From assembly GCA_015061465.1 (NCBI GenBank), contig SUWN01000022.1, positions 1-38,790 of the forward strand: a DNA stretch of 38,790 bases, in the 5' to 3' direction. Under the pieces are notes generated by a model that was not told the origin of the DNA, ran no database searches, and saw only the letters and a list, made by a program, of their open reading frames with translations. Made by a program: the position numbers and the translations under genes. Below are positions 15-7,338 of this stretch, piece by piece. Positions within the stretch are counted from its first letter, which is position 1; every line of letters starts with the position of its first letter. This DNA comes from Treponema bryantii (lineage in GTDB: Bacteria > Spirochaetota > Spirochaetia > Treponematales > Treponemataceae).

Positions 15-818
15 ATGTCTGTTGTTACTCTAAAAGATGTTCACAAAATTTATCCAATGGGAAAACAATTCGTAGAAGCTGTAAAAGGTGTTTCTTTTCA
101 AATTGAAAAAGGAGAATTTGCCGCAATTTCTGGACCATCTGGTTCTGGAAAATCAACTCTTTTAAATATGATTGGTTTAATTGACGTTCCTTCTGATGGT
201 GAAATTAATATTGGCGGTACAAATGTTTATGAAGGCGTAAATTTAAAAGAAGATTCTAACATTTTAAAAACTGCAATTCCTGCAAAATTAGATAAAAGAA
301 TTACTGCTTTGCGTCGCTCTCACATCGGTTTTATTTTTCAAACATTCAACTTAATTCCTGTTTTAAATGTTTACGAAAACATCGAATTTCCACTTATGTT
401 GGAATCAAAAAATCCTGCTTCTAAAAGTCCAGTTGATGATTTTTCAAAAGCACAAAAACAAGAATGGATTAACTATTTAATAGAAAAAGTTGGTCTTTCT
501 GATTGGAAAAAACACAAAGCAAACGAACTTTCTGGCGGTCAAAGACAACGTGTTGCAATCGCACGTGCTTTAGTTACAAAAGCTCCTGTTATTCTTGCCG
601 ATGAACCAACTGCAAACCTCGATTCCAAAAACTCAGAACAAATTTTGTCTTTGATGAAATCGTTGAATAATGACAAAGATTTACAAACAACTTTTATTTT
701 TTCAACTCACGATTCTAGAATTGTAGATATGTGTGACCACGTTATTCATATTTTGGACGGACTTGTTGTAAAAGATGAACACAAAGTTGGTAGCGACGTT
801 TATAAGGTAGGTAAATAA
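15..818 (+). CDS. LolD/MacB-type ABC transporter ATP-binding protein
   Basis: This is the cytoplasmic ATPase of an envelope ABC transporter of the LolCDE/MacB class, which uses ATP to release or move lipoproteins or other molecules from the inner membrane. Seen in the 267-residue product: Walker A GPSGSGKST (about 40-48), Q-loop Q109, signature LSGGQ (172-176), Walker B VILADEP (192-198) and the switch histidine in STHD (about 232). It is longer than a typical LolD (about 225-235 aa) because of insertions around residues 75-97 and 132-150. The stop codon shares its last base with the ATG of the next gene, a FtsX-like permease, so the two are translationally coupled. An AGGTAA-type ribosome site precedes the start. 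The family call is firm; the transported substrate is unknown. Confidence 0.93.
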   Translation: MSVVTLKDVHKIYPMGKQFVEAVKGVSFQIEKGEFAAISGPSGSGKSTLLNMIGLIDVPSDGEINIGGTNVYEGVNLKEDSNILKTAIPAKLDKRITALRRSHIGFIFQTFNLIPVLNVYENIEFPLMLESKNPASKSPVDDFSKAQKQEWINYLIEKVGLSDWKKHKANELSGGQRQRVAIARALVTKAPVILADEPTANLDSKNSEQILSLMKSLNNDKDLQTTFIFSTHDSRIVDMCDHVIHILDGLVVKDEHKVGSDVYKVGK

Positions 819-2362
819 TGAAAGAAATTTTTCGACTTGCTTTACGAAATCTTTCTGAACATAAATCTAAAACAATCATCATTTCTTTATTTTTAGTTTT
901 TGGAATGGCGATTGTTGTTCTTGGAAACTCTTTCCTTGAATCTATAAACAGAGGTTTAGAAAAAGATTTTCGTCAAAATTACACTGGCGATTTGGTAATT
1001 TCAATTCAGCCAGAAAAAGGCACAATTTTAGATATTTTTGGCGTTGCTGCAACAGCAAATATCGGTGGAGAAATTCCTCAAGTTCCAGCAATTCCTGATT
1101 TAAAAAACGTTGAAGAAATTGTTTATGCGCAAGAAGGAATAAAAGGAACAACTAAACAAATTTCTGCACAGATTTTGATTGCTAAAGGAAAAGAAATGGA
1201 CATGTCCGACTTCATTGAAAACGATGATTTAGGGTTTGACGATTTGCCAATTTCTATGCTTTTTGGTGTTGAAGAATCTTATTGGGATTTGTTTCCAAAA
1301 GTTAATCTTGTAGAAGGTCGCTATCCACAAAAAGACACAAACGAAGTTATGATTGACACTCGTGTTAAAAATGCGTTTGAAAGTCTTTATAAAAAACCAC
1401 TGAACGTTGGCGATGATATTTTGATGCTCGGTGCAAATACAAACGGAGTTATTCGAGAAGGAAAACTCGTTGGTATTTTTGATCCACCAAACGAAAATTC
1501 TGCAATGTTCCAAATTGTTTATTGTGATCCAAATTTAGCACGTGCTTTTGCAGATTTAACTTACGCAGCAAATTTTGAATCTGAACTTCCTTCATACGTT
1601 GATTTTTCAATTTCTGAACTTTCGGAAGATGATTTGTTTGGAAGTTCCGACGACGATTTATTTGGTGACTTAATAGAAGAATCCGATGAAATTCTTCGCC
1701 AAGATACAACTGATTTTTCTGATATTTTGGGCGACACAACGCTTCGTGATGAATTAAACAAAACTGATGAAGGTGCTTGGAACTTTATTTTAGCAAAAGT
1801 AAAAAATCCTTCTCAAACAAAAAACGTAATTGAAGAATTAAAAACAAAATTTGCCGATGCAAACTTAAACGTTCAAGTTATGGATTGGAAAGCCGGCGCT
1901 TATTCTTATTCAGGAACTGTGGAAGGAATTGGCTTCATTTTCAATTTGTTGATAATTATTCTTGCCGTTGTTGTTTTCATCATCATTATGAACACAATGG
2001 TTGTTTCTGTAATAGAAAGAACTGGCGAAATTGGAACTATGCGCGCAATCGGTGCAGAAAAAAGTTTTGTAAAAAAATTGTTCTTTACAGAAACTCTTTT
2101 TTTGACAGTTGTTTCATCTATTATTGGATTTATAATCGCTTTTATTGCAATGGCAATCTTTAATAGTTTGGAAATTACAATTACAAATAGTATTGCAAAA
2201 ATGATTTTGGGCGGCGGTCTACTTCATTTTAGTCCAACTGTAAAAATCATCGTTGCAACTTTCTTTGTAGCAATTATTGGAAGCATTTTAAGTAATCTTT
2301 ATCCAATTTCATCTGCGTTAAAAATTACACCGTTAAAAGCTCTTTCCAAAGGTTCTGATTAA
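818..2362 (+). CDS. FtsX/LolE-like ABC transporter permease with acidic insert
   Basis: Inner-membrane permease of the MacB/LolC-E type (514 aa). Seen: an N-terminal membrane segment at about 20-40, a large periplasmic domain (about 45-365), then three membrane segments in the C-terminal FtsX domain (about 370-395, 420-450, 475-500). The conserved ERTGEIGTMRAIGA stretch, which couples to the ATPase, lies at about 400-413. The periplasmic domain carries an unusual acidic stretch at about 265-306 with a repeated D-LFG motif (DDLFGSSDDDLFGD, 271-284). A very similar motif occurs at the mature N terminus of the outer-membrane protein encoded at 4513-5805. The gene sits between the ATPase and a second permease, and the three probably form one transporter. 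Substrate unknown. Confidence 0.9.
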   Translation: MKEIFRLALRNLSEHKSKTIIISLFLVFGMAIVVLGNSFLESINRGLEKDFRQNYTGDLVISIQPEKGTILDIFGVAATANIGGEIPQVPAIPDLKNVEEIVYAQEGIKGTTKQISAQILIAKGKEMDMSDFIENDDLGFDDLPISMLFGVEESYWDLFPKVNLVEGRYPQKDTNEVMIDTRVKNAFESLYKKPLNVGDDILMLGANTNGVIREGKLVGIFDPPNENSAMFQIVYCDPNLARAFADLTYAANFESELPSYVDFSISELSEDDLFGSSDDDLFGDLIEESDEILRQDTTDFSDILGDTTLRDELNKTDEGAWNFILAKVKNPSQTKNVIEELKTKFADANLNVQVMDWKAGAYSYSGTVEGIGFIFNLLIIILAVVVFIIIMNTMVVSVIERTGEIGTMRAIGAEKSFVKKLFFTETLFLTVVSSIIGFIIAFIAMAIFNSLEITITNSIAKMILGGGLLHFSPTVKIIVATFFVAIIGSILSNLYPISSALKITPLKALSKGSD

Positions 2363-2374
2363 TCGAGGTAAATT

Positions 2375-3715
2375 ATGGGTAAAATATTCAAACTTGCATT
2401 AAGAAATCTAACAAGACAAAAACGAAGAAACGTAATTTTGGCAATCGCAATTGCATTTGGATTTTTTGTTGTTACAACTATCGACGGATTAATTTCTGGA
2501 ATGGTTGGAAATTTGGAAGATTGTATTACAGAATTAACAGGTGGAACTGTTTTAATTTCTGGTTATGAAAAAATTCCTGCAACTCAAGAAGGTGAAAAAT
2601 CACAACTTGTAAATATTATTCGCGATAAAGATTACATTAAAAATATTGTGGAAGAAAATAATTTTGATTATAAATACTTTTCTTCTTTTACACTTTCTGC
2701 TGGACAAGTAATTTTCAACGGAAAAAAATCCATGGCAACAATCTACGGACGAAACATTCTAGATAAGGATTTTTTGGATAATTTACAAATTATTGAAGGT
2801 TCGGTAGAAAATCTTTCTGATCCACAAGCGTTAATTATCAGTGATAAAATGGCTGAATCGCTAAATATTCAAGTTGGCGATCAATTGATTTATACAACAA
2901 CAACAATTTATGGCCAAAATAACGTTGCTGATTTTACAATTGCAGCAATCATAAAATCAAACAATTTTATTAATTCAATGCAATCTTACGCAAATATCGA
3001 TACAATCAACGCGCTTGTAAATATGCCAGAAGGTGGATATAACACATTTACAATTTATTTGAACGATAAAAACCAACAAACAAAAGTCGCTCAACAAATT
3101 GAAAATCTGATTCGTGCCGACGGTGTAAATGTTTCTAGTAGATTGGAAGCTCTTAAAACAAATCCAGCAAATCCTGGACGCGGAATTGATAAACAATTTA
3201 CAAAAGAAGAATTCCAATGGGAAGGAACAAAATACGGCGTTGTTTCTTTGAACGATGAAATTCCTGCAATAAAAACTGTTCTTTCTGTAGTTCACACTGT
3301 AACAACAACAATTTTAATTGTAATTTTGTTAATTGTTATGGTCGGAGTTTCAAATACTTACAGAATGGTTTTATACGAACGAATCCGCGAAATTGGAACT
3401 ATGCGCGCCCTTGGAATGAACGGAAAAGATACAGGAAAGATTTTTACAACAGAAGCGTTAATTCTTTGTTTAATCGGTGCAATTTCTGGTTTAATTCTTT
3501 CTGTTATCGTGATGGGTTGTATTCATTTAATTCCTATTAATATAGAAAGTCTTTCTTTCTTCTTACACAAAGGTCATTTCACATTCAAACTTTCGTTTGG
3601 CTCGATTATTGTGCAATATTTCTTGTTAATTTTATTAACATTCTTTGCTGTAAAAGGAAGTGCAAAAAAAGCTGCGGCAATGAGTCCAGCAGTTGCTTTA
3701 AGAACAATAAAATAA
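2375..3715 (+). CDS. FtsX/LolE-like ABC transporter permease (second subunit)
   Basis: Second permease of the same transporter, 446 aa. It has an N-terminal membrane segment (about 20-40), a periplasmic domain (about 45-300) and three C-terminal membrane segments, with the family-typical ERIREIGTMRALGMNG stretch before the second of them. It lacks the acidic LFG insert of its partner, so the two permeases are distinct, as LolC and LolE are. GAGGTAA precedes the ATG, and the gap to the upstream gene is 12 nt. The heterodimer is inferred from gene order and family knowledge. Confidence 0.9.
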   Translation: MGKIFKLALRNLTRQKRRNVILAIAIAFGFFVVTTIDGLISGMVGNLEDCITELTGGTVLISGYEKIPATQEGEKSQLVNIIRDKDYIKNIVEENNFDYKYFSSFTLSAGQVIFNGKKSMATIYGRNILDKDFLDNLQIIEGSVENLSDPQALIISDKMAESLNIQVGDQLIYTTTTIYGQNNVADFTIAAIIKSNNFINSMQSYANIDTINALVNMPEGGYNTFTIYLNDKNQQTKVAQQIENLIRADGVNVSSRLEALKTNPANPGRGIDKQFTKEEFQWEGTKYGVVSLNDEIPAIKTVLSVVHTVTTTILIVILLIVMVGVSNTYRMVLYERIREIGTMRALGMNGKDTGKIFTTEALILCLIGAISGLILSVIVMGCIHLIPINIESLSFFLHKGHFTFKLSFGSIIVQYFLLILLTFFAVKGSAKKAAAMSPAVALRTIK

Positions 3716-3728
3716 TTTTGAGGTTAAT

Positions 3729-4493
3729 ATGAAAAAATCACTTTTAATTTTATCAATTTTTTTAGCTTCTTGTTTTGTTTGTTTTGCTCAAGTTTCTGAC
3801 GAACAATCTGAACAAGCATTTAAAATCATGGAATCAACTGACGACGTTTTGGCGTATCACGGGGATTATTCGGCAACAATTTCTCTTGTTATAGAAAAAC
3901 CTGGAAAACCAAAAGAAAGTCTTCAATACAAAATTTTTGAACGCACAGATTCAGAATTAATGACAATCGTTCAACTTTTTCCAGAAGCAGATAAAGGAAA
4001 CGGTTTTTTGCGCGACGGAGAAAATATTTGGTCTTATGATCCAATCAGCCGAAAATTCACTCACACTTCTTTAAAAGAAGCGCTCGGTGAATCTGACGTG
4101 AAAATCGACGATATTAATCAAAGCGAAACTCATTGGCGCGATAATTATACAGTTTCTGGATTTGAAGAAGGAACTCTTGGAAAATTCCCTGTTTATATCA
4201 TCACTTTGGATGCAAAAACAACAAAACCTTCTTATTCAAAAGTTAAATATTTCATCCGTAAAGACGTTCCTCTTACTTTAAAAGAAGAAGATTTTTCTGG
4301 TTCAGGAAGATTGATGAGAACAATTCTAATTCCAAAATATACAAAAGTTCCTGCTGGCTACGTTCCAACACAAATGTTACTTCGTGATGAATTAAACAAG
4401 GGTGAAAATACTCAGCAAGTTGTTTCTGATTTAACATTTGACGCACTTCCAGATAAAATTTTCACAAAAGCGTATTTGGAAAGTTTAAACTAA
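3729..4493 (+). CDS. LolA-like outer-membrane lipoprotein-sorting family protein
   Basis: Periplasmic protein of 254 aa with a Sec signal peptide (hydrophobic core about 4-20, probable cleavage after CFA). The rest reads as the LolA-like 'outer membrane lipoprotein-sorting' family: a beta-rich half-barrel with the GENIWSYDPISRKFTH stretch (about 96-111) and a late SGSGRLMRTILIPKY segment. Such proteins act as periplasmic carriers or accessories that pass lipids or lipoproteins to the outer membrane. It follows an ATPase and two permeases and precedes an outer-membrane barrel, which supports a trans-envelope route. A GAGGTTA ribosome site lies just upstream. The specific cargo is not known. 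Confidence 0.82.
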   Translation: MKKSLLILSIFLASCFVCFAQVSDEQSEQAFKIMESTDDVLAYHGDYSATISLVIEKPGKPKESLQYKIFERTDSELMTIVQLFPEADKGNGFLRDGENIWSYDPISRKFTHTSLKEALGESDVKIDDINQSETHWRDNYTVSGFEEGTLGKFPVYIITLDAKTTKPSYSKVKYFIRKDVPLTLKEEDFSGSGRLMRTILIPKYTKVPAGYVPTQMLLRDELNKGENTQQVVSDLTFDALPDKIFTKAYLESLN

Positions 4494-4512
4494 TTTTATA
4501 AAAGGACTTTTT

Positions 4513-5805
4513 ATGAAAAAAATATTTTTACTTTGTAGTTTTTTTGCTTGTTCCTTACTTTTTGCTCAAACAGAAGAAGAACTTTTTGGTTCTGCCGACG
4601 ATGATTTTTTCTTTGACGATGGAATTGAAGAATTTGTAGAAACAAAAACAACAGAAGAAGCTGTTGATTTAAGCAAAGGCGTTTTATTTCAAACAGGTTC
4701 AGTAGAAATCAGCGGAAATTTTGATTTATCGCTTACAACTTGCACAACTTTTAATAAAGACACAGAAACAAAAGATTCTTTTGAAAATACAATTTTATTT
4801 CCTGCTGCAGACGCACAAATTATTGTAGACGCTCGTCCATCTGAAAATTTGCGCCTTTATTTAAAATCGGGAATTAATTATCCTTACGTAACAGAATCAA
4901 AAGCAACTATTATAACTTCGCCATTTCCTCAAACTCCTACAACTTTTGATTTTAAAAATATGTTCTACGTAAAAGAACTTTTTGGCGATTTCAACATTGG
5001 TCCAAACGTTGCTTTTAGATTTGGTAAACAAACTGTAACTTGGGGCGTTGGTTATTTCTTTAGTCCAGCCGATGTTATTAATCTAACAGCAATTGACCCA
5101 GAAAACCCAACAGCACAAGTTGAAGGTCCACTTGCTTTAAGAACACAAGTTGTTTTCCCAGGAACCCAGCACGCAATTTGGACTTACGTTATTCCAGAAA
5201 ATCCTGTGCTCTATGTTGAAGGACAAGGTGCAATTTCTTACGCTAAAAATACAGCTTTTGCTGCAAAAGGTGACATTGTAATTGGACCAAATGAATTTGG
5301 AATAGGTGGTTGGTACAAATATCAAAATTCACCACGCGCAATGCTTACATTTTCTGGAACAATTTTTAGAAATTACAGCATTTTTGCAGAAGGCGTTCTT
5401 GCTTTTGGAAAAGATTCGGCTTGGCTAAAAAATTCCACAGAAGATAAAAAACCTATTTTCCAAACAACAGCCGGAATTATGCGCTTCTGGAAAGACCAAA
5501 ATATCACGGTAGCTTCGCAATATTATTATAATCAACAAGAAGATGCTGCTAACGCAAGTTTTTCTACACACGGACACAACGCCGCTATAATGTGTAACTT
5601 TGGAAAAATCGGTACAGATTCTTTTTCTTCACAAATTTTTGCGATGATGAACTTTAATAAAGTTGCAGGAATTGCTTCTGTCATGTTAAAATATAATCCA
5701 ATAAACGAATTTAGCATTAGTTGTGGTCCATATTTTGATTGGAAAGAAGATAACCTTTCAACTTCTATAAAACTTGTTTTTGATTTTGGTAGCGGAAAAT
5801 TCTAA
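4513..5805 (+). CDS. Outer-membrane beta-barrel protein with acidic LFG N terminus
   Basis: Exported protein of 430 aa with a signal peptide (about 1-18, cleavage after LFA). The mature protein begins with an acidic low-complexity stretch EEELFGSADDDFFFDDGIEE (21-40) and continues as alternating beta-strands ending in an aromatic-terminated strand (LVFDFGSGKF), typical of outer-membrane barrels. It is the last gene of the Lol-like operon, 19 nt after the LolA-like gene. I do not recognise a named family. It may be the outer-membrane partner or acceptor of the transporter. The acidic LFG motif is shared with the permease at 818-2362, which hints at a physical link. Confidence 0.72.
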   Translation: MKKIFLLCSFFACSLLFAQTEEELFGSADDDFFFDDGIEEFVETKTTEEAVDLSKGVLFQTGSVEISGNFDLSLTTCTTFNKDTETKDSFENTILFPAADAQIIVDARPSENLRLYLKSGINYPYVTESKATIITSPFPQTPTTFDFKNMFYVKELFGDFNIGPNVAFRFGKQTVTWGVGYFFSPADVINLTAIDPENPTAQVEGPLALRTQVVFPGTQHAIWTYVIPENPVLYVEGQGAISYAKNTAFAAKGDIVIGPNEFGIGGWYKYQNSPRAMLTFSGTIFRNYSIFAEGVLAFGKDSAWLKNSTEDKKPIFQTTAGIMRFWKDQNITVASQYYYNQQEDAANASFSTHGHNAAIMCNFGKIGTDSFSSQIFAMMNFNKVAGIASVMLKYNPINEFSISCGPYFDWKEDNLSTSIKLVFDFGSGKF

Positions 5806-5856: not shown

Positions 5857-7338
5857 ATGCGAAAAAAGGTGTACGTTATTGGAGCGGGCGTTTCTGGTCT
5901 TTCGGCTGGAATTTACGCCGCTCGTTGTGGTTTTGATGTAACAATTTTAGAACAACATTTTACTTTTGGTGGACTTTCTACTAGTTGGAGTCGAAAAGGA
6001 TATTTCTTTGAAGGAGGAATGCATTGGCTCACTGGTTCGGGAGAAGACCAACCTTTAAATAAAGTTTGGAAGCAATTAGGCGCTCTTCAAGAAAACAATC
6101 CTGTAGAAAATAAAGAAATTCTTTATTCTTTTGTAGATAAAAACGGCAAACAAATAAATCTTTGGCGCGACATTGAAAAAACACGTCAAGAATTCATACA
6201 ATATTCTCCAGAAGATAAAAACGTTATAAACACTTTGTATAACGATGTAAAAAAATATACAAAAGTTCATCTTCCTGTTGCTGATTTACCCGGCTTAAAA
6301 TCTATGGAACCAATGCATCCATCTATAAAAGAACTTCTTGCAATGATTCCAGCTGGAATTCGAACTCTCCAACTTTCAAACACATCCTTTTTAGATTACA
6401 TTAATCGATTTAAAAACAAAGATTTAAGAGAATTATTAAAAGCCGTTACAAGCAATCAATATAATGCAACTTCTTTTTTGTACACAATGGCTTCTTTTGC
6501 CTGCGGCGATTCAGGATTCCCAAAAGGCGGTTCAATTCAATTTGTAAAAAATATGGTTGATACTTTTGAAAGCCTTGGCGGAGAAATTCAATATAAAACA
6601 ACTGTTGAAAAAGTCGTTGTAAAAAACGGAATTACAACTGGCGTTCAAACAAAAGATGGATTTTTGCCAGCTGATGCAGTAATTGTTTCGCAAGATTTTA
6701 GACAAGCCGTTGATACTTTATTTGATGTTCCTATCACTTCAAAATTTGTTCAAACAATGAAGAAAAATCTTGTTCCAGAAGAAAATACTTTTATTTGTTT
6801 AGGTGTAAAAGCAGATTTGTCCCATCTTCCTCACACTTGTATTTTCCCTTTGGAAAAACCTTTTGAATGTGCAAACAATTTTTATACACATTTAAGAGTA
6901 AACAATTATTCTAGAAATAAAGAAGCCGCTCCTGAAGGTTGTACATCAGTTACATCCATTTTGATTGGTGAATCGTACGATTATTGGAAAGCGGCAAAAG
7001 AAGACGGAACTTACAAAGCAAAAAAAGATGAACTTGCACAAAGATTCATTAAAGAATTAGAAGCTTTTGTTCCAGAAATAAAAGACAACGTTGAAGTTAT
7101 CGATGTTGCAACTCCTTGTACTTACGAACGATATTGTTCTTCATATCATGGTTCTTGGATGAGTGTTTGGTGTAAAGGAACTCCAAAAATCAAATATCCA
7201 CATAAATTACCAGAAATACAAGGATGTTATTTTGCAGGCCAACGTCTTCAAATGCCAGGCGGACTTCCAATCGCTGGTTACACAGGAAGAATGGCTGTTC
7301 AACATTTGTGTAAAGATACAGAAACTATTTTTGTTTAA
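5857..7338 (+). CDS. CrtI/RetSat-like FAD-dependent oxidoreductase
   Basis: FAD- or NAD(P)-binding oxidoreductase of the phytoene desaturase / carotenoid isomerase / retinol saturase superfamily, 493 aa. Seen: the N-terminal dinucleotide-binding motif VIGAGVSGLSAG with a glutamate at the end of the second strand (TILEQ), the family-typical GGLSTSWSRKGYFFEGGMHW region, and a C-terminal FAD-contact segment (CYFAGQRLQMPGGLPIAGYTGRMA). The substrate cannot be told: bacteria without carotenoids carry many such genes. AAGGAG lies 7-8 nt before the ATG. It follows the envelope operon by 51 nt on the same strand and may be cotranscribed; no terminator is visible between them. Confidence 0.85.
   Translation: MRKKVYVIGAGVSGLSAGIYAARCGFDVTILEQHFTFGGLSTSWSRKGYFFEGGMHWLTGSGEDQPLNKVWKQLGALQENNPVENKEILYSFVDKNGKQINLWRDIEKTRQEFIQYSPEDKNVINTLYNDVKKYTKVHLPVADLPGLKSMEPMHPSIKELLAMIPAGIRTLQLSNTSFLDYINRFKNKDLRELLKAVTSNQYNATSFLYTMASFACGDSGFPKGGSIQFVKNMVDTFESLGGEIQYKTTVEKVVVKNGITTGVQTKDGFLPADAVIVSQDFRQAVDTLFDVPITSKFVQTMKKNLVPEENTFICLGVKADLSHLPHTCIFPLEKPFECANNFYTHLRVNNYSRNKEAAPEGCTSVTSILIGESYDYWKAAKEDGTYKAKKDELAQRFIKELEAFVPEIKDNVEVIDVATPCTYERYCSSYHGSWMSVWCKGTPKIKYPHKLPEIQGCYFAGQRLQMPGGLPIAGYTGRMAVQHLCKDTETIFV

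Follow-up and report, generated by a model that had tools for sequence, protein, structure and literature searches.

Why do an inner-membrane permease and an outer-membrane protein encoded by one operon of Treponema bryantii carry the same acidic peptide? The operon begins at position 15 of the window (the whole stretch of 38,790 nucleotides analysed here, contig SUWN01000022.1 of assembly GCA_015061465.1). Its genes encode, in order, an ATPase, permease 1, permease 2, a LolA-like protein and a barrel. The features of the locus are as follows, with the source of each assignment in parentheses.

15..818, + strand: LolD-like ABC ATPase (ABC_tran, E 5e-34; the top NCBIfam model is LolD, under its cut-off, 187 vs 308 bits)
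818..2362, + strand: permease 1, motif-bearing, type VII / LolC-LolE/MacB fold (FtsX and MacB_PCD domains)
1577..1777, + strand: periplasmic insertion of permease 1, residues 254-320, largely disordered (AF2 pLDDT, hhalign)
1628..1669, + strand: acidic LF motif of permease 1, DDLFGSSDDDLFGD, residues 271-284 (sequence)
2375..3715, + strand: permease 2, of the same fold family but lacking the motif (FtsX, MacB_PCD)
3729..4493, + strand: LolA-like periplasmic carrier with a signal peptide (PF17131 LolA_like, E 2e-36)
4513..5805, + strand: predicted outer-membrane beta-barrel, 18 strands, OprD/Occ-like fold (AF2 model)
4567..4692, + strand: N-terminal tail of the mature barrel, disordered and predicted to be periplasmic, approximately residues 19-60 (AF2 pLDDT)
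4573..4620, + strand: acidic LF motif of the barrel, EEELFGSADDDFFFDD, residues 21-36 (sequence)

The sequence-only reading had placed the motif at residues 271-284 of permease 1 and 21-36 of the barrel, and had described permease 2 as lacking it. Both peptides are found exactly there, and permease 2 of the window is indeed devoid of the motif, as is the window's LolA-like protein. When aligned with permease 1 of its own operon, the barrel tail scores 62; the LolA-like protein gives 31 and permease 2 gives 26. The score of 62 (z = 4.6) was reached by none of 200 composition-preserving shuffles of the tail, a test that covers the window's single pair and is weaker than the comparative evidence given below. 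Synonymous codons differ between the two motif copies, and recent gene conversion between the permease 1 and barrel genes is therefore ruled out as the origin of the likeness.

The AF2 model of permease 1 (pLDDT 82.9) finds its best fold matches in LolE (Z 24.8) and the LolC periplasmic domain (Z 16.2). The periplasmic insertion is mostly gapped when aligned with E. coli LolC and LolE by hhalign, and is largely without counterpart in either. Within it, the motif loop has pLDDT values below 50 at residues 268-270 and 275-301. The barrel is modelled with about 18 strands spanning residues 63-425 and a C-terminal Phe, and its tail has pLDDT values below 50 at residues 15-57. The model resembles the 18-stranded OprD/Occ porins (OpdO/OccK) with a Z of 20.4 and an rmsd of 4.2 over 297 aligned residues, a likeness of fold only, with 5-10% identity to these porins. 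Unlike them, the barrel has a long acidic N-terminal tail and is encoded in the operon of a Lol-like pump. It gave no Pfam or NCBIfam match (Pfam scanned at E up to 1), a profile of 37 sequences matched no PDB sequence, and the Pfam scan detected no Omp85 domain in it. The even strand number would place both barrel termini in the periplasm, so that the tail and the permease 1 loop would face the same compartment. As for the LolA-like protein, its profile matches a solved protein of the LolA superfamily, 3buu, with an E of 3e-31.

The module of five genes, comprising the LolD-like ATPase, two LolC/E-fold permeases, the LolA-like carrier and the OprD-like barrel, is conserved among relatives, which our genome collection names as metagenome-assembled genomes of Treponema and other spirochaetes. 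In the relatives' operons sampled, no neighbour outside the five genes is conserved that could hint at the cargo. In the window a CrtI/carotenoid-isomerase-like FAD oxidoreductase (5857-7338) adjoins the barrel gene downstream; it is absent beside the relatives' operons sampled. Several irregular copies of the operon were also seen. In G050, where the barrel gene is unlinked, permease 2 and the LolA-like gene are separated by an extra open frame of 394 codons (L071:1282-2463). Permease 1 is apparently split into two overlapping frames in G063 (L079:5752-7333) and has an internal stop in G057 (G057:C1:2391790-2393319), each through decay or sequencing error. Finally, one assembly holds two seemingly identical paralogous operons (G113:C13 and G113:C18), which are either a true duplication or an assembly artefact.

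A motif occurring at the N terminus of many unrelated exported treponeme proteins would be a generic acidic tail, and the genome-wide motif searches reject this. Among 145 whole family genomes, the consensus SDDDLFGGSDDDFFGDD gave 14 matches in 8 genomes, all 14 in permease 1 or the barrel. The paralogous variant DDFDSLFDDAEDVEEAVV gave 18 matches, 17 of them in the paralogous operon's own permease or barrel. Matches to both patterns were assigned to proteins by position, and background rates were derived from pattern and short-protein searches. In the genome of origin and two relatives, the remaining readable [DE][DE][LF]FG matches lie in ordinary proteins, none at an exported N terminus. The acidic LF loop is absent from 13 other FtsX-type permeases of seven genomes, where the few regex matches lack such a context. 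The motif shared by permease 1 and the barrel is neither a chance occurrence nor a generic tail.

The eighteenth match to the variant pattern lies in a predicted lytic transglycosylase lipoprotein of G093 (L233:6510-8735), which has a variant-B motif, DDIDSLFDDAADTD, in its linker. We considered this protein as a third carrier of the motif and rejected it, its orthologues being without the motif.

Confinement to two proteins also bears on the proposal that both motifs bind some general periplasmic factor, such as a chaperone, a BAM component or a peptidoglycan-linked protein, that co-localises pump and barrel. Chaperones bind at the mature N terminus, and the tail is indeed located there. However, a general factor would lead one to expect the motif in other envelope proteins, and every paralogous operon has its own variant of it. 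We regard this proposal as improbable.

The motif of close relatives is SEDDLFGxDDDFFGD in permease 1 and QSDDDLFGGDDDFFxDDG in the barrel tail. F274 of permease 1 is one of 17 invariant columns among 53 permeases with 23-71% identity to the window copy. The position is Phe in 91 of 91 permeases and in 108 of 109 permease 1 relatives when other classes of the phylum Spirochaetota are included. This near-invariant residue sits within an otherwise disordered and variable loop. The strict acidic-LF pattern was sought in 79 cognate sets and found in 77 permease 1 loops and 72 barrel tails, compared to 6 of 78 permease 2 proteins and two LolA-like proteins. In other orders and classes loop and tail alike retain the motif: one pair reads SEEDIFAEDS in the loop and SSEEDIYSEEN in the tail, and a further distant pair reads DDFDSLFGDD and DDFDMDSLFGEE. 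The barrel family is present in 123 of the 248 genomes of the class (64 of 101 genera). The carrier profile finds a match in 215 of 393 phylum genomes and none in the small class genomes G163, G185, G201 and G216 (1.0-1.5 Mb).

The conserved Phe weighs on two further explanations. In the first, the peptides would be convergent, low-complexity acidic linkers with no specific function. Many disordered acidic linkers do hold an occasional LF pair, and single matches occur in unrelated proteins, but a Phe that is near-invariant across the phylum, the restriction to two proteins and the paired variants of paralogous operons make this reading, which we disfavour, very improbable. In the second, divalent cations would link pump and barrel directly by way of their acidic motifs. 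Motifs on both sides are very acidic and prone to repetition, and (GGSDDDLF)n superficially resembles calcium-binding repeats; however, the most conserved residue is Phe and not an acid, and most tails have one or two copies without calcium-binding spacing. We give such bridging equally little credence.

The repeat (GGSDDDLF)n is encoded in the barrel tail by a tandem array of about 8 copies of a 24-base unit (L061:2701-2898, and also L058; genomes G075 and G062). It is an expansion of the putative docking motif that possibly varies between strains.

The form of the motif differs between operons, and it differs in pairs. A second operon family with the same layout has its own variant (DIDSLFDDAEDV...), common to its permease and its barrel. 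Examples from paralogous pairs are DDLFGEELDMEQVVQSE with DSLFDGASDMEQVVVSE, and DFSIDDLFADT with DFSLDDLFADS. In seven genomes that contain both operons, 14 comparisons of the cognate loop with the other operon's loop gave 12 wins for the cognate loop, one tie and one loss. Over the class-wide set, cognate pairing was better than random (0 of 20,000 permutations, phylogeny uncorrected). The cognate score exceeded the score to relatives of 30-45% permease identity by a mean of 11.9 and was the higher in 67 of 79 cases. This excess vanishes at the nearest relative, where the comparison of cognate loop with relative's loop stands at 42 to 36. Moreover, motif copy number in the loop correlates with that in the tail (rho 0.47, phylogeny uncorrected), and the motif pair is retained in genomes whose barrel gene is remote from the operon (G043, G050 and G064). 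Within a cognate pair, a change in the form or copy number of one motif goes with a change in the other, for the most part along phylogenetic lines. Motifs diverging together along the tree are what would be expected of a maintained interaction, although such divergence alone is no independent proof of one.

In G008 and G028 (L066 and L067) and in G192 (L196), loop and tail are both greatly expanded into Phe-rich acidic repeats within the same genome, which suggests concerted elaboration.

This pairing could also arise if pump and barrel met directly, and the chief rival explanation is a bridge that engages a site on the transporter. The permease loop would dock on its own transporter, at the periplasmic domains of permease 1 and permease 2; the barrel tail would displace the loop and so bridge the membranes. 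Transport would occur only where pump meets barrel, with the carrier moving within the bridge. The presence of one motif on both proteins with cognate specificity, the co-expansion of loop and tail in G008, G028 and G192, and the length and flexibility of the tails, which could span the periplasm, are all consistent with this switch. In the AF2 model, however, the loop (pLDDT below 50) makes no contact with the folded domain, although such docking is poorly tested by a model of one chain with no partner present. We consider the switch unlikely, if less so than the other alternatives.

The earlier proposal that one functional motif is presented from opposite sides of the periplasm finds support in phylum-wide conservation, restriction to two proteins and co-variation, and a shared function of the permease 1 and barrel motifs is well supported. 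Since direct binding between two acidic motifs is improbable, docking to a single partner is the simplest account. Our preferred reading, to which we assign a probability of about 0.58, is that the motif is a short linear docking site displayed at both membranes for one common partner, most likely the LolA-like carrier, within an ATP-driven export module of the Lol/type VII kind. The LolA-like protein is favoured because it is the operon's own soluble periplasmic protein, and because there is a type VII precedent for a pump that recruits its carrier via a periplasmic loop. In E. coli, LolC, and not LolE, recruits LolA via a periplasmic Hook loop (residues 167-179) that enters the LolA cavity (PMC10865981). 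Simple electrostatic pairing of the motif with a basic carrier was rejected: the LolA-like carriers have a median charge of -2, and the window copy -9. A carrier without net positive charge would have to recognise the motif locally and in part through hydrophobic contacts. Conserved basic residues of the carrier are R72, K89, K185, R197 and K247.

On this reading, the five genes would make up an export module of the Lol/type VII ABC kind that uses ATP to move cargo from the inner to the outer membrane. Permease 1 would present the acidic LF motif on its flexible periplasmic loop, and the barrel would present the same motif on its flexible periplasmic N-terminal tail. The LolA-like carrier would dock on permease 1 and pick up a hydrophobic cargo, which may be a lipid, a glycolipid or a lipoprotein. 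The loaded carrier would then cross the periplasm and be caught by the barrel tail, and the cargo would pass to the outer membrane. One tag at both ends would allow reversible docking and would limit each operon to its own carrier. The hand-over, its direction and its cargo are what we infer from this arrangement.

The module shares with E. coli LolCDE-LolA-LolB a LolD-like ATPase, two LolC/E-fold permeases and a LolA-fold carrier. In both systems one permease of the two has a special periplasmic loop, permease 1 here and LolC there. However, its proteins score below the NCBIfam family cut-offs (LolD 187 vs 308 bits, lolCE 53 and 60 vs 362, lolA 17.5 vs 112). It has no hairpin of Hook length either: the LolC Hook (167-179) faces an eight-residue gap at about residues 203-213 of permease 1 in an hhalign alignment of one sequence. 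The Hook and the motif loop occupy different sites, and the parallel between the two would be one of function and not of loop homology. Moreover, the outer-membrane partner is a beta-barrel here and the lipoprotein LolB in E. coli. With the curated cut-offs not reached and the Hook lacking, we describe the module as a variant of the Lol type and not as a member of the Lol family.

The spirochaete cluster BBJ23-29 of Borrelia similarly combines a LolDE-like ABC transporter, a LolA-like protein and an outer-membrane barrel, for which a non-polar ligand was proposed (PMC13078400). It differs in having an Omp85-type barrel of 346 aa where the present one is OprD-like, one homodimeric permease and extra TPR proteins, and no motif has been reported for it. 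MacAB-TolC and other type VII ABC systems (e.g. YbbAP, PMC12646458) share the permease fold, but in the present operon the ATPase is a separate gene, a MacA-type adaptor and TolC are absent, and the partner is an 18-stranded barrel. In the literature searched, which reached few subscription papers, we found no report of a motif common to pump and barrel, nor any description of Lol systems with a motif shared at both ends.

To our knowledge, the Spirochaetota have no recognisable LolB. We tentatively propose, with less confidence than the docking itself, that throughout the phylum the barrel may replace LolB as the receptor, catching the LolA-like carrier by the same motif that recruits it at the pump. 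One linear motif would then serve departure and arrival and keep paralogous export lines apart. A recent review calls the transfer from LolA-type carriers to the outer membrane in LolB-less bacteria unresolved (PMC11784454). Envelope lipid and lipoprotein transport in spirochaetes is poorly understood, and the motif common to pump and barrel offers a concrete, mutable handle on the step from carrier to outer membrane. Docking of the kind favoured here would mean a new variant of Lol-type transport, possibly with a barrel instead of LolB. The motif would further supply a rule by which to pair paralogous export operons, and would allow unlinked outer-membrane partners to be found from sequence alone.
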